Part shown: positions 39,832 to 53,396 of the stretch, one piece after another
Position numbering within the stretch: position 1 is the stretch's first letter
Layout: the number at the start of each line of letters is the position of its first letter
Assembly: GCF_012911895.1 (NCBI RefSeq)
Contig: NZ_JAAXCV010000032.1
Coordinates: 1-64,000, forward strand
Direction: 5' to 3'
DNA length: 64,000 nucleotides
DNA from: Bacillus sp. RO3
Lineage (GTDB): Bacteria; Bacillota; Bacilli; Bacillales; Bacillaceae_B
The notes under the pieces: model-generated
What the model was told of the DNA's origin: nothing
The model's database searches: none
Seen by the model: only the letters and a program-made list of their open reading frames with translations
Program-made: the position numbers and the translations under genes

Positions 39832-40051
39832 TACTTTCATCTCCTTCCGCCCTGAATCATCTGAAACAGAGTAATTTATTACGAAGATATATGTGATATG
39901 AGCATAAGCATGAGAGTTATAGCCAGCCCCTTACCACATCCATATTTAAAAACACATTGATGTTATTATAACAAGGACAAGGGATATTTGCAACCTGAAA
40001 AATTGGAAGTTCCAGACATGACCGTCCTCGAAAAATCATTCGATCCTTAGG

Positions 40052-46805: not shown

Positions 46806-47330
46806 ATGATAAAAATGTTTACAACTCAGCTAACGGGCCTGTTCAAGCGTATATATGACAAGCAGGAATTTCAAATCGAAGACGGTGCCCGCCTGCTGGC
46901 GCAGGCCGCCATCGGTGAAGGGAATATCTACATCAAAGGATTTGGTGAAATGGAGGCGGTCACTGCAGAAGCCCTGTCCGGTGCCGAACCTCTCCCTTCT
47001 GCCAAGCGTTATGATCCTTCCGTTGAATTGACTGAGGCTGATCGTGTGTTGCTCGTCACTCGATTTTCAACGGATGAAGAGGCTGTTTTACTTGGCAGGA
47101 AATTGTCGGATGAAGGAGTTCCCTTCGTAGCCGTGTCAGGCTTAGTCGAGGGAGAAGCCAACCTGGCTGACACAGCCGACATTCACCTGGATACGAAACT
47201 GATCAAAGGCATGCTTCCCGGCGAAGAGATCGGTGAGCGGGTAAGCTTCCCTTCCAGCATGGCCGCCCTTTATCTTTATTTTGTCCTGGGGTTTGGCATC
47301 CGTGAGATGCTTGAGGAGTATGAAGAGTAG
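46806..47330 (+). CDS. ywjG: YwjG-like protein (DUF2529, SIS-like fold)
   Basis: The 174-residue protein matches DUF2529: an N-terminal helix (MFTTQLTGLFKRIYDKQEF), GNIYIKGFGEMEAV, and VLLVTRFSTDEEAVLLGRKL resembling a sugar-isomerase (SIS) half. AAGGAG lies 9 nt before ATG 46806; upstream codons are spurious. Divergent from spo0F as in B. subtilis. Function unknown. Confidence 0.88.
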   Translation: MIKMFTTQLTGLFKRIYDKQEFQIEDGARLLAQAAIGEGNIYIKGFGEMEAVTAEALSGAEPLPSAKRYDPSVELTEADRVLLVTRFSTDEEAVLLGRKLSDEGVPFVAVSGLVEGEANLADTADIHLDTKLIKGMLPGEEIGERVSFPSSMAALYLYFVLGFGIREMLEEYEE

Positions 47331-47339
47331 GTTGAAATG

Positions 47340-47371
47340 GACCTGTCCCGGATCGGGATGGGTTTTTTTTG
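47340..47371 (+). terminator. Terminator of ywjG
   Basis: CCTGTCCCG pairs with CGGGATGGG (two G-U pairs) around a 3-nt loop, followed by eight T. Confidence 0.8.
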
Positions 47372-47418
47372 ATGAAGGAGCGGCTTCCCAAAAGGAGGCA
47401 CCCCGAAAGGCGCCTCAC

Positions 47419-48414
47419 TCAAGAGCCGCGCACCTTCCTGGCATGTATATAGGTCACTGCCAGTGCCAGCACCAGTACGCTTCCTTTAATGATTTCAAAT
47501 GCATAGTATGGTAGATTCATCATCGTCAACCCGTTCAACAGGACTCCGATCAGTGCCGCCCCGAAGAAGGTCCCGAGAATATTGGGCTTCCCTGCGCCCA
47601 AAACGGAGAAGCCGACAAACACCGCAGCCACAGCTTCCATCAGGAGAGGGGCTCCGGCATCCATCTGCCCTGATCCCACACGGGCCGTGAACAGGATCCC
47701 TCCGATCGATGCGAATACCCCCGATAGAACGTAGGCGATTAATTTCACCCGCTTTACCCTTACCCCCGATAAGCGGGATGCCTCCTCGTTCCCACCAGTC
47801 ATATAGAGAATCCGTCCCCATGTTGTGAAATGCATGATGACATAAACAAGGGAAACCAATACGAGCATGATCCAGACGGGAACCGGCAGTCCCAGCCATT
47901 TGCCCTGACCGATCCAGAGGAAAGCCTCGGAGAATTCTCCCGGAGCCGTCCCGCCTGTTGTCATGGGCATATGATTGTAGATCGAGTATCCTTCTGTATA
48001 CGTTCGATGTACGCCAGAAATGATATACATGGCTCCTAGAGTAGCCAGTAAATCCGGGATGCCGAACTTAACGATCAATAACGAATTGAACAGCCCCACT
48101 CCCGCTCCCACCAGTATGGGAATGAGAAGGACGATCCACATGGGAGCTTCATACCAGACCATCAGTGAAGCCGTCACCACCGTAGAAAGAGAAACTGTCG
48201 ATCCCACTGACAAGTCGAAGCCGTCGACAACGAGAGTGAAGGTGACCCCGAGGGCCACCACCGTCACGATGGAAATCGAGCGCAGAATGTCTGATAAATT
48301 TCCATATGTAAAGAAGTATGGATTATATAAACTGAAGAAGATAAGAATCACGGCCATCAAACATATGGCCCCGTATTTAAACAGTAAGTCGAGCGTCTTG
48401 CCTTTCATATTCAT
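47419..48414 (-). CDS. ABC transporter permease, ribose (RbsC) family
   Basis: The 331-residue membrane protein has about eight to ten helices and the RbsC-family motifs TLVVDGFDLSVGS, FGIPDLLATLGAMYIISG and the EAA-like TGGNEEASRLSGVRVKRVK. It overlaps the ATPase gene by about 38 nt from an ATG at 48414 (or 48408) behind GGGGGG. With the two genes upstream it forms a complete importer. The substrate is not shown by sequence; the SAM riboswitch upstream suggests a methionine-cycle sugar such as methylthioribose (inference). Confidence 0.9.
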   Translation of the reverse strand: MNMKGKTLDLLFKYGAICLMAVILIFFSLYNPYFFTYGNLSDILRSISIVTVVALGVTFTLVVDGFDLSVGSTVSLSTVVTASLMVWYEAPMWIVLLIPILVGAGVGLFNSLLIVKFGIPDLLATLGAMYIISGVHRTYTEGYSIYNHMPMTTGGTAPGEFSEAFLWIGQGKWLGLPVPVWIMLVLVSLVYVIMHFTTWGRILYMTGGNEEASRLSGVRVKRVKLIAYVLSGVFASIGGILFTARVGSGQMDAGAPLLMEAVAAVFVGFSVLGAGKPNILGTFFGAALIGVLLNGLTMMNLPYYAFEIIKGSVLVLALAVTYIHARKVRGS

Positions 48415-49912
48415 AAGTCCCCCCTGAAGCATAAAACAGTATGAGTTCTTGAGTCGCTTCTTCATTTTTCAGTTCTTTGACGATCCGCCCATCATACATG
48501 ACGAGGATCCGGTCCGATATGGCCAGGATTTCCTGTATCTCACAGGAAAAATAAAGGACACCTTTCTCCTTTTCGGCAAGGGATTGAATCAGGGAGAAGA
48601 TTTCCTTCTTTGCCCCCACGTCCACACCCTTCGTCGGTTCATCGAATAAGTACACCATCGATTCCTCTGACAGCCATTTTCCTATTGCCACCTTTTGCTG
48701 ATTCCCTCCGCTTAAAAAGTCGGCCCGGATTCCTTCATGGGCGGCTTTAATCGAGAGGGAAACGATTTTCTCACGAGCCATCTCACGCTCTTTGCGCCGG
48801 TTGATCCACAGTCTGTCAGATACGTTTCTTAAAGAAGGAAAACTCAGGTTTTGCTGGACAGACTCATGGATGAACAGGCCTTCTTTCCGTCTTTCTTCGG
48901 GAACGAGGGCCAACCCGTTCCGAACTGCGTCACGGGGAGAATGAATCTCAAGCTTCCTCCCATTGAGGAAATGATCACCCTTTTCTACAGGAGAAGCTCC
49001 GAATAAGGCTTTGGCCAGCTCCGTCTTCCCCGCTCCTACAAGACCAACCACCCCGACGACTTCCCCTTTTTTTACGGACAGATGAATATCCTTTACTTTT
49101 TTTCCGTCGCCAAGATCCTTCACCTCGTAAAGCGTTTCCCCGACCTGTCGTGACCTTCTCTCGAATTCTTCTTTATATGTACTTCCAAGCATGGATTCAA
49201 TAATGTCATGAGGGGTCGTTTGAGCGGTGTCAAACGTCCCTACCCTCTCTCCGTCCTTCATAACCGTGATCCGGTCGGAAAGCCGAAACACTTCCGGCAG
49301 CCTGTGAGAGATGAAAATGATCCCCACTCCCTCTTTCTTCAACTCATCAATGACCCGAAAGAGCTTTTCCGTCTCTAAAGAGCTTAAAGGCGCCGTCGGT
49401 TCATCTAAAATCAGTACTTTCCCATGTTGGATGAGACTTCTTGCAATGAGCACCAGCTGCTTTTCCGCGAGTGTTAAGGAAGACGCGGGAACATGCAGGG
49501 GGATCGTTTCTGCCTCTATCCGTTTAAGGGCCTCCATTGCTTCATGGTGCACCGATTTTTTCGTAATGAAAAAGGATCGTTTTTGAGAAAATCGATCAAG
49601 GATGATATTTTCCGCAACGGAAAGTTCAGGGACAATGGCCGTATCCACTTCCTGGTACACGCAGTGAATGCCATGTTCCTTCGCTTCTTTGGGAGATTGA
49701 TAGTCTCTCTTTTCAGACTGAAGGACGATGTCTCCCGTGTCCTGCACAAAAGCTCCTGACAAAATCTTCATCAAGGTGCTTTTCCCTGCACCGTTCGCAC
49801 CGAGAAGGGCGTGTACCTCCCCCTCTTTCACATCGAAGCTCGCATTCTTCAAGGCTTTCACTCCAGAAAAACGTTTATTGATGCCCCTCATTTCTAACAG
49901 CTGAGATTCCAT
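48377..49912 (-). CDS. ABC transporter ATPase, ribose/xylose (RbsA) family, two ABC domains
   Basis: The 511-residue protein carries two nucleotide-binding domains, as in RbsA. The N-terminal one has Walker A GANGAGKST and Walker B VLILDEPTAPL. The C-terminal one has the Walker A variant GLVGAGKTELAKAL, LSGGNQQKVAIGKWL and VYLFDEPTKGVDVGAK. The ATG at 49912 lies 9 nt after AGGAG. It begins 16 bp after the binding-protein stop. Confidence 0.92.
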   Translation of the reverse strand: MESQLLEMRGINKRFSGVKALKNASFDVKEGEVHALLGANGAGKSTLMKILSGAFVQDTGDIVLQSEKRDYQSPKEAKEHGIHCVYQEVDTAIVPELSVAENIILDRFSQKRSFFITKKSVHHEAMEALKRIEAETIPLHVPASSLTLAEKQLVLIARSLIQHGKVLILDEPTAPLSSLETEKLFRVIDELKKEGVGIIFISHRLPEVFRLSDRITVMKDGERVGTFDTAQTTPHDIIESMLGSTYKEEFERRSRQVGETLYEVKDLGDGKKVKDIHLSVKKGEVVGVVGLVGAGKTELAKALFGASPVEKGDHFLNGRKLEIHSPRDAVRNGLALVPEERRKEGLFIHESVQQNLSFPSLRNVSDRLWINRRKEREMAREKIVSLSIKAAHEGIRADFLSGGNQQKVAIGKWLSEESMVYLFDEPTKGVDVGAKKEIFSLIQSLAEKEKGVLYFSCEIQEILAISDRILVMYDGRIVKELKNEEATQELILFYASGGTYEYERQDARLTV

Positions 49913-49928
49913 CTCTCCCAACTCCTTT

Positions 49929-51014
49929 CTACTCTTTCAATGATGCCTCAAGCTTTTTCAATTCATCTGTATATCCCTGTTCACTTGCCCCCCAGCCATC
50001 TACATGCTCGTGTAACTGATCTGTCGTGATCGTTTCAGCCGGCAATGCATCCTTCTCTATAAACACTGGATTGAGTTTCACTTTCTCCGGTGTTGCTTCG
50101 CCGTTCAGATTTTGATATAAGAAACGCACCTGCACCCGGCCGATATCCTTCGGGTCCACTGCTGCCGACGCTACCCACGGGCTCCCCTCTTTTTGGATGA
50201 TCTGCAGGTCCTCATCACTCATATCGATTCCATATACTTTGATTTCATCCCTTCCTGCCGCTTCAATGGCACGGACGGCACCTTTTGCAAATTCATCCCA
50301 GGCCGCCCATACCGCATCGATGTCCCCTTTATTCGGGTACTGCTTCAAGATCGCTTCCATCTGTGCCTGTGTATCCAAGGCGGTATTCTGGGTAGCCGCT
50401 CCAAAGGCCGCCACCTCTTTAATACCGGGATTCCCTTCTAAAAATTCCTTATATGCCACCTGACGTCTTTCCATGGGCGCGAAGCCTGCAACCCAAATCT
50501 TCACGATCTCCCCTTCACCGCCGAGCTCTTCCGAAAGCCTGGTCAAGGTTTGCTCCGCCATTTCCCGGTCTCCTTGTTCAAGGACGGTCACTCCTTCTGA
50601 TGCAACATCCGCATCAAAAACGACTACGGGAATATTTTGTTCCTTTGCTTTTTCCACCCCTGATTGCAGGGCTTCTTTCGTTCCATGATCAATGAGGATC
50701 CCATCAAATTTCTGATTGATGGCTGCATCCAGATTCGAAGACATCTTCGCGAGATCCCCCTCTGACGTAAAAACCTGCACCTTGCCTCCGAATTTCTCTA
50801 CCTGTTCCTTTACCCCTCTTATGTACTGAGCCGAAAATGTTCCTAAATTGATCTGCATGATGAGTGCTATTCTCTTATTCGAAAGGGGATGGTCGGAGAC
50901 TGTTTCCTTCTGCTTTCCTGTTTCTGCCCCTGCCTCCTGGGATACCTTTGGCTGACAGGCCGCCAAACTGAAAATGAGTGTTAATAAAACGAGTAATATT
51001 CCTGCTTTTTTCAT
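49929..51014 (-). CDS. Sugar-family ABC transporter substrate-binding lipoprotein
   Basis: The 361-residue lipoprotein has its lipobox (FSLAAC) Cys at residue 20, then a type 1 periplasmic-binding fold (RIALIMQINLGTFSAQYIRGVKEQ, GILIDHGTKEALQSGVEKAKEQ given in part, IDAVWAAWDEFAKGAVRAIEAAG). AAGGAGAAGG precedes the ATG. First gene of the three-gene importer. About 340 bp upstream ends a SAM-I riboswitch terminator, so this operon is the obvious target. No kinase or regulator gene accompanies it. Confidence 0.9.
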   Translation of the reverse strand: MKKAGILLVLLTLIFSLAACQPKVSQEAGAETGKQKETVSDHPLSNKRIALIMQINLGTFSAQYIRGVKEQVEKFGGKVQVFTSEGDLAKMSSNLDAAINQKFDGILIDHGTKEALQSGVEKAKEQNIPVVVFDADVASEGVTVLEQGDREMAEQTLTRLSEELGGEGEIVKIWVAGFAPMERRQVAYKEFLEGNPGIKEVAAFGAATQNTALDTQAQMEAILKQYPNKGDIDAVWAAWDEFAKGAVRAIEAAGRDEIKVYGIDMSDEDLQIIQKEGSPWVASAAVDPKDIGRVQVRFLYQNLNGEATPEKVKLNPVFIEKDALPAETITTDQLHEHVDGWGASEQGYTDELKKLEASLKE

Positions 51015-51180
51015 TTTTCCTTCTCCTTCCGAGGTACCATGCCTCTATGTGATAAAAAGCTCTTTCAGTGTTTTCATTCAGCAAGTCATAGGTGTCAGAA
51101 AACATTGAACTCCTTTATAAACAAAGAAATTCTTCCATTCGTTTGGGTTACGTGGAGTGTGTAAGGATGTAAAACCCAGA

Positions 51181-51316
51181 AAGTTGATTGGAGCGGAAGG
51201 TGCTCGACTCCTGCGGGAGATGCGGGAAGGTTGAGACCCCACAGGGCAACGCCCGAGGAGGCTCAACTCCCGCCCCGCGGAAAGCGAGCAACCTGCAGCG
51301 GAAAGCAACTTCTACA
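51181..51316. repeat. GC-rich Bacillaceae-type intergenic repeat
   Basis: About 135 bp of high G+C (core words CTCCTGCGGGAGATGCGGG, TGAGACCCCACAGGGC, AACTCCCGCCCCGCGGAAAG) contrast with AT-rich flanks. It contains inverted complementary segments. I recall near-identical elements as common intergenic repeats in Bacillaceae. It lies in the transcribed space between the riboswitch terminator and the binding-protein gene; short open frames here are repeat-derived. Confidence 0.7.
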
Positions 51317-51354
51317 ATCTTCTTTAGAACAACAACCAACTTACGTAAAGAGCC

Positions 51355-51390
51355 AAATAAAAAACCTCTTTTCCCAAGAGAAAAGAGGTT
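51355..51390 (-). terminator. Riboswitch-controlled terminator
   Basis: AACCTCTTTTC (51390-51380 on the minus strand) pairs with GAAAAGAGGTT (51373-51363), then a TTTTTTATTT run. It starts 19 nt after the SAM-I aptamer, the expected expression platform. Confidence 0.9.
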
Positions 51391-51408
51391 TATGTATAAA
51401 TAAACGTA

Positions 51409-51517
51409 CTCTTATCACTCAGGAAATTCTTCCTGCAGGTCTTAGCACCTTTCCGTTTGTGAACGGTAGGTTGCCGGGCATCATCGGGCCAGTCCCTCTG
51501 CCAACTCTTTATAAGAG
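51409..51517 (-). ncRNA. SAM-I riboswitch (S-box leader)
   Basis: The minus strand carries the S-box core in order: P1 arm CTCTTAT (51517-51511), GCAGAGGGACTGGCCCGATG, then CCCGGCAACC, a P3 hairpin (ACCGTT/AACGGA), AGGTGCTAAGACCTGCAG, and the closing P1 arm ATAAGAG (51415-51409). These are the conserved nucleotides of SAM-I. Binding of SAM favours the downstream terminator and shuts off the gene. The next gene on this strand is the ABC binding protein. Confidence 0.95.
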
Positions 51518-51556
51518 ATTATGAAATTGGTTTGGTTCGCATTTGCTATAATCGCT

Positions 51557-51585
51557 ATGTTACCGATGTGTGGGAATATTGTCAA
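51557..51585 (-). promoter_or_regulatory. SigA promoter of the S-box unit
   Basis: Perfect TTGACA (51585-51580), 17 bp, TAACAT (51562-51557). Start near 51550, about 30 nt before the aptamer. Confidence 0.8.
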
Positions 51586-51712
51586 TATTCTTTTTTCAGA
51601 ATTTTTCGCAATGGGAATGACGAGTATTCGCGAAAAATGTCTTTATTTGTAGAATGGTCCATATTGCGAAAAGAGGTTGATAATGCCGATTTTCTGTTGA
51701 CCATTCCAACCA

Positions 51713-51747
51713 ATAAAAAACCGCTCTCCCCAATCAGGGAGAGCAGT
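51713..51747 (-). terminator. Terminator of pyrG
   Basis: CTGCTCTCCC (51746-51737) pairs with GGGGAGAGCGG (51731-51721), followed by a T-run on the minus strand. Confidence 0.9.
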
Positions 51748-51761
51748 TCCAGAATCGTTTC

Positions 51762-53396
<1,635 letters not shown>

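Follow-up and report, generated by a model that had tools for sequence, protein, structure and literature searches.

The closest described system is MtrABC, predicted to be an ATP-binding cassette (ABC) transporter for methylthioribose in Bacillus cereus, where it goes with an S-box, and in gammaproteobacteria, where it goes with metboxes; so it is presented in PMC3228920, which cites Rodionov et al. 2004 and calls the system functionally uncharacterised at that date. Methylthioribose uptake and salvage genes are counted among the MetJ regulons in the part of PMC4239095 that deals with them, and "methylthioribose ABC transporter" appears as an annotation in sections of PMC9502454 and PMC7843439. 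Here we describe an ABC importer behind an S-box, encoded on the minus strand at 47419-51585 of a stretch of 64,000 nt (the window) from contig NZ_JAAXCV010000032.1 of Bacillus sp. RO3, which has a genome of 4.22 Mb. We consider it very probable that this importer takes up 5-methylthioribose (MTR) and is of the predicted MtrABC kind. Its riboswitch, terminator and gene run, its kinship to salvage-linked importers, the pathway genes of the host and an altered ribose pocket were all computed directly. Members of MtrABC are recognised here by a sugar-class ABC binding protein, ATPase and permease in one gene run, by S-box control together with the methionine regulon, and by linkage to or co-occurrence with mtnK and mtnA.

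Results

The original prediction, made from the letters of the window, had described a complete binding protein, ATPase and permease set on one strand behind an S-box, inserted between ywjG and pyrG, and this layout was recovered in full. Along the minus strand a promoter-like site is followed by a SAM-I (S-adenosylmethionine, SAM) riboswitch, an intrinsic terminator, a leader of about 350 nt and three importer genes, which form one gene run and are each assigned by Pfam domains. The first gene (49929..51014) encodes a substrate-binding lipoprotein of 361 aa (Peripla_BP_4, 153 bits), which is of the mtrB type and is proposed to bind methylthioribose. It is followed by an mtrA-type ABC ATPase with two nucleotide-binding domains (48377..49912; ABC_tran, in two stretches) and by an mtrC-type ABC permease (47419..48414; BPD_transp_2, 142 bits), the gene of which overlaps the end of the ATPase gene. 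The start codons of the latter two were chosen by eye: for the ATPase the ATG at 49912 is more likely than the listed TTG at 49921, and for the permease the ATG at 48414 is the probable start. The flanking genes are pyrG upstream and ywjG downstream (names given by eye; the ywjG product is DUF2529 in Pfam), so that in the window the importer stands alone with its own S-box and is not adjoined by mtnK or mtnA.

A covariance-model search with RF00162, proposed along with the original prediction, placed the aptamer at exactly the coordinates first read from the sequence (51409..51517, minus strand; 82.7 bits against a gathering score of 44.4, E 5.3e-18), and the match is complete, covering model positions 1-108 with no truncation. 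With 11 S-boxes in 4.22 Mb, the chance that one ends no more than 1 kb upstream of a given gene is about 0.0013. The intrinsic terminator, originally put at 51390-51355, was found at 51362..51391 on the same strand, with 13 pairs and a T-rich tail that runs to about 51355. As terminator-like sites in the scan (7) hardly exceed those in shuffled sequences (5.4), the argument for this terminator is its place. A hairpin with a T-rich tail lies at most 160 nt past the S-box in all 26 of the directly linked loci described below, by a permissive search that had no shuffled control. As for the promoter that the riboswitch was thought to possess, TTGACA-17-TAACAT is present at 51557..51585 (minus strand; 10 of 12 consensus positions) and is the sole minus-strand promoter-like site in 47300-51800, but the scan gave only 2 sites in total where shuffles gave a mean of 4.8, so that the site alone lies within chance and proves nothing. 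What adds to it is the recurrence of an exact TTGACA box in 11 of the 18 related loci examined, with 32-41 nt between the end of the second hexamer and the S-box.

In the usual SAM-I layout, transcription stops when SAM is bound and reads on when SAM is absent. The computed folds of the RO3 leader agree with this arrangement. With P1 closed the terminator is free to form, and when the transcript is cut before the 3' arm of the terminator, AAGAG of the P1 3' strand pairs with CUCUU of the terminator 5' arm. The antiterminator core predicted by the minimum-energy fold spans 51383..51413 on the minus strand, AAGAG/CUCUU being continued by GUUUAU/AUAAAC. The expression platform is accordingly predicted, as for a SAM-I riboswitch, to be a terminator with a competing antiterminator. 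Plentiful SAM would bind the aptamer and close P1, upon which the terminator at 51391-51362 would form and transcription would stop; when SAM is scarce, the P1 3' strand would instead pair with the terminator 5' arm and RNA polymerase would read on. We infer that such SAM-dependent switching occurs in the cell, where read-through would yield the importer alongside the rest of the S-box regulon.

At least 11 S-boxes were detected in the RO3 genome (150 of 268 candidates were scored), and the importer shares S-box control with the methionine regulon. The other ten precede genes for two pyridoxal-phosphate-dependent Cys/Met enzymes, an amino-acid kinase (by eye an aspartokinase), two ABC ATPases, one with a NIL domain, a phosphoadenosine phosphosulfate reductase, an Na+/H+ antiporter-family protein which we take to be MetT-like, SAM synthetase, mtnW and mtnK. 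The last two S-boxes both lie in a salvage stretch at C28:499-507 kb, where mtnK and mtnA make up one side and mtnW, mtnX, mtnB and an mtnD of the ARD family the other; an aminotransferase gene and a nitrilase-like gene between the two sides are by position mtnE and mtnU. MtnK, with 542 bits and a single match in the genome, exceeds its NCBIfam cut-off, as do MtnA, MtnB, MtnX and MtnW, while MtnD is assigned to the ARD family by Pfam. It had been asked at the outset whether mtnK, mtnA and mtnD occur elsewhere in the genome, and all three do. Imported MTR would thus be phosphorylated by MtnK and converted to methionine by the salvage enzymes encoded at C28:499-507 kb.

A scan of genome contigs for orthologs of the importer yielded 200 relatives, from which the best 80 loci were kept. 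The S-box model used to search these was based on nine of the eleven RO3 S-boxes and excluded L009 and L011, which have longer aptamers. A direct S-box, ending 92-748 nt before the binding-protein match, was found in 26 of the 80 loci. A further 29 have an S-box, mtnK, mtnA and then the binding protein, and in 28 of these the ATPase and permease come next, the contig of L082 ending first. The remaining 25 have neither arrangement; 24 are from Paenibacillus and the other (L066) is a short contig of a metagenome-assembled genome, in which mtnB and mtnD precede the importer. The site between pyrG and ywjG is common to 13 loci (L020-L029, L062, L084 and L095). The closest named record is Rossellomorea sp. 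AcN35-11, with a binding protein 99% identical to that of RO3; in this relative the ATPase match is split by a 65-nt gap (L020, 7094-8637), possibly a frameshift or local divergence. MtnK was above the cut-off in all 18 genomes tested from among the 80 loci, 12 of them Paenibacillus.

Twenty further stretches, chosen and not a random sample, were also read. All ten with close orthologs have an S-box either before the importer or before a run of mtn genes that holds it, as do eight of the ten with weaker relatives; in the other two (L146 and L153) mtnK and mtnA directly follow the importer. In L154, L155 and L163, three stretches that belong to a single family of genomes, the importer comes after mtnWXBD in one run. 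In Aneurinibacillus aneurinilyticus a tandem pair of S-boxes stands before the binding-protein gene (L098, 5581-5873), and in Aneurinibacillus tyrosinisolvens separate S-boxes serve mtnK (minus strand), mtnD and the importer (both plus strand) within 1.2 kb (L096, 4734-5899).

Co-occurrence with MtnK was assessed in a sample of 299 genomes of the order, 105 of which have a match to the binding protein with an E value of 1e-40 or lower. A close ortholog (at least 327 bits) is present in 58 genomes and a weaker one (at most 266 bits) in 48, G137 having both. Internal stops appeared in eight matches, and the two that were placed (G083 and G192, that is, L154 and L155) are natural frame ends overrun by the aligner. 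MtnK exceeded its cut-off in every one of the 58 genomes with a close ortholog as against 161 of the 299 overall (Fisher p 8e-19, uncorrected for shared ancestry). In 33 of the 58, mtnK is a same-strand gene less than 2 kb upstream; in another 10 it is on the opposite strand, at a distance of about 6 kb.

The binding protein itself falls below the cut-off of every NCBIfam model, including the best-scoring one, RbsB (65.7 bits, cut-off 337), and LsrB (24 bits, cut-off 384). The closest solved structures are 5ulb (219 bits), which we take to be a Yersinia enterocolitica protein, and 4ry8 (192 bits), with the next best at 105 bits. We compared the pocket at 14 positions of E. coli RbsB that we take to be its ribose contacts. 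The window protein differs at 10 of them and keeps F15, D89, R141 and D215; N13, N64, R90, F164, N190, F214 and Q235 of RbsB are replaced by G, D, A, T, W, I and V, and in 4ry8 the same seven positions read G, D, L, T, W, V and T. Over the 14 positions the window protein shares 8 residues with 4ry8, 6 with 5ulb, 5 with 4wt7 and 4 with RbsB, and 2ioy, presumably a ribose-binding protein, agrees with RbsB at all 14. The tryptophan at position 190 is not specific, as it also occurs in 4wt7 and 3l49, which are both outside the group of the window protein in the tree. Among 14 aligned orthologs, 11 are identical to the window protein at the 14 positions, two agree at 13 and L083 at 11.

A tree of 49 rows drew on 14 of the 80 ortholog loci, on 19 of the 20 further stretches and on reference proteins (L157 and a duplicate of the window, L165, were left out). 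It contains a group of 36 rows (support 100/97) that unites salvage- or S-box-linked proteins, including some from the mtnWXBD-importer runs, with three Paenibacillus orthologs, 4ry8 and 5ulb, the last of these, presumably from Yersinia, being placed with the weaker sister clade. RbsB, LsrB, XylF, AlsB, 4wt7 and 3l49 all fall outside. The window protein, for which a comparison with RbsB, XylF, LsrB and other S-box-linked proteins had been suggested, thus stands with the S-box- and salvage-linked group and apart from all three. Long branches are carried by 4ry8, LsrB, XylF and AlsB. Six other Peripla_BP_4 matches were found in the RO3 genome at E 1e-10. One, at C2:55907-56668, is an RbsB-like protein with a TLNNPFF motif; the other five begin, by eye, with the helix-turn-helix of LacI-type regulators.

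Elsewhere in the window, an L31-Firmicutes ribosomal protein leader was detected at 39841-39871 (RF03156, 40.1 bits).

Discussion

Uptake of a methylthioribose-type sugar, as first proposed for this locus, is supported by the loci in which S-box, mtnK, mtnA and importer follow one another, by the host mtn genes that stand under S-boxes, by the changes in the pocket and by the tree. From these we infer MTR as the substrate and import as the direction of transport.

Several observations weigh on the other side. The Fisher p value takes no account of shared ancestry. In 15 of the 58 genomes with a close ortholog, RO3 among them, MtnK is not encoded within 10 kb of it, and five of the 12 genomes of the same genus, RO3 counted (G027, G157, G233, G277 and G298), are MtnK-positive with no match to the binding protein at E 1e-40, which makes the importer dispensable for salvage. 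The 24 Paenibacillus orthologs have neither an S-box nor an mtn gene in the available DNA, the upstream part of which is shorter than 6 kb in three of the 25 loci lacking an S-box (236 nt in L058, 1594 in L066 and 2088 in L069). The structure 4ry8 is presumably, but by our assumption, Tlet_1677 of Thermotoga lettingae with bound 5-methylthioribose; the binding protein is 36% identical to it (38% to 5ulb), and 4ry8 retains F16 as RbsB does and has a long branch in the tree. A full-text literature search found no paper naming 4ry8 or 5ulb. Finally, MTR influx in B. subtilis is ascribed to another gene, MtrA, formerly YfnA, in PMC5743806, so that gene names clash and B. subtilis solves MTR uptake differently.

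The Paenibacillus loci were looked at more closely. A scan with all Rfam families of 10 of the 24, and of L066, gave no match, and the 12 Paenibacillus genomes contain between at least one and at least three S-boxes each, compared with 11 in RO3. Orthologous importers with no detected S-box and no mtn neighbours are seen, for example, in L045, L055 and L099.

The alternative that survives best, although we regard it as unlikely, is an importer for 5-deoxypentoses in general, which would carry 5-deoxyribose along with MTR or in its place. The source of 5-deoxyribose is the 5'-deoxyadenosine released by radical SAM enzymes. MtnK acts as the kinase of both MTR and 5-deoxyribose in the dihydroxyacetone phosphate (DHAP) shunt of E. 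coli, according to PMC12632272, and sugar transporters occur in the 5-deoxyribose clusters of some bacteria (PMC6079011, in the part concerned with these clusters). Some loci of the sister clade carry mtnK and mtnA, and L152 has a gene for a class II aldolase nearby. However, those close orthologs that have salvage neighbours are found with mtnK-mtnA or with mtnWXBD behind S-boxes, and the lone MtnK match of RO3 lies in one stretch with mtnA, mtnW, mtnX, mtnB and mtnD; SAM-I control would also suit the recovery of methionine better than the use of carbon. In the weaker clade, L152 (1071-9460) has an S-box, the importer, then mtnK and mtnA, the aldolase being of family PF00596. An open reading frame of 252-253 aa that by eye resembles DeoR-type regulators lies beside mtnA in L146, L152 and L153, and these three loci are possibly 5-deoxypentose (DHAP-shunt) clusters.

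Somewhat less probable still is a broader function, in which the importer would be a general scavenger of 5-deoxy-5-substituted pentoses, collecting both MTR and 5-deoxyribose from neighbouring cells, and the sister clade would have turned to carbon use. If this were true, a cell short of SAM would, through SAM-I control, respond in part by taking up by-products of SAM that have been excreted.

A different objection concerns regulation, namely that a short terminated RNA is all that the riboswitch controls and that the ABC genes are transcribed from another promoter, for example one from an inserted repeat. The leader indeed contains, between terminator and start codon, a GC-rich dispersed repeat of 138 nt (51175..51312, minus strand), identified by a genome repeat search with 27 matches, itself included, 12 of which are at least 80% identical over nearly the full length. 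It lies within about 300 extra nt that part the terminator from the start codon in RO3. Nevertheless we think this very unlikely. A consensus scan, which covers one promoter type only, found no promoter-like site on the minus strand from 51391 to 51014, and eight of the 13 pyrG-site loci have only 92-97 nt from the end of the S-box to the start of the binding-protein gene. We saw no sign that the repeat breaks the link from S-box to importer. It is absent from the leaders of L021-L023; about 650 extra nt, with what by eye is a similar-looking repeat, occupy the same leader position in L024.

An ordinary ribose importer (RbsBAC) that stands behind an S-box by accident is hardly credible and was rejected, since the family-level likeness (Peripla_BP_4, with RbsB as the top NCBIfam model) is outweighed by the model score, the pocket residues, the position in the tree and the separate RbsB-like protein of RO3, and the direct S-box in 26 of 80 orthologs speaks against a chance placement. 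Autoinducer-2 (LsrB) and xylose (XylF) were rejected as well, both models scoring far under their cut-offs and both proteins falling outside the group, on very long branches.

There would be something for an MTR importer to collect, as E. coli excretes MTR (stated in a passage of PMC6302742). A full-text literature search, which most subscription papers lie beyond, found no transport study of this ABC importer, and the accessible portions of PMC2211319 and PMC3766115 do not mention it. Related plasmid-borne copies (36-49% identical) go under "sugar transporter" in 14 of 15 among the matches listed, from 218 records in total. The RO3 locus offers a clean, testable case for giving a widespread importer a substrate, and confirmation would provide a name for a family with close orthologs in 58 of the 299 sampled genomes of the order.

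Since an S-box-linked MTR importer has already been predicted in print, the RO3 locus is a clear new example and no surprise. It shares with MtrABC the same three-part sugar-type ABC importer, an S-box in a Gram-positive host and the linkage to mtn genes, and differs in that the RO3 importer, under an S-box of its own and with no mtn gene beside it, lies between ywjG and pyrG and has a dispersed repeat in its leader. MtrA (YfnA) of B. subtilis shares the proposed uptake of MTR and is a different gene, presumably encoding a single protein of the amino-acid-permease type and not an ABC system. RbsBAC has the same domain families and the same kinds of genes as the RO3 importer, whereas the pocket, the model score and the regulation set the two apart.

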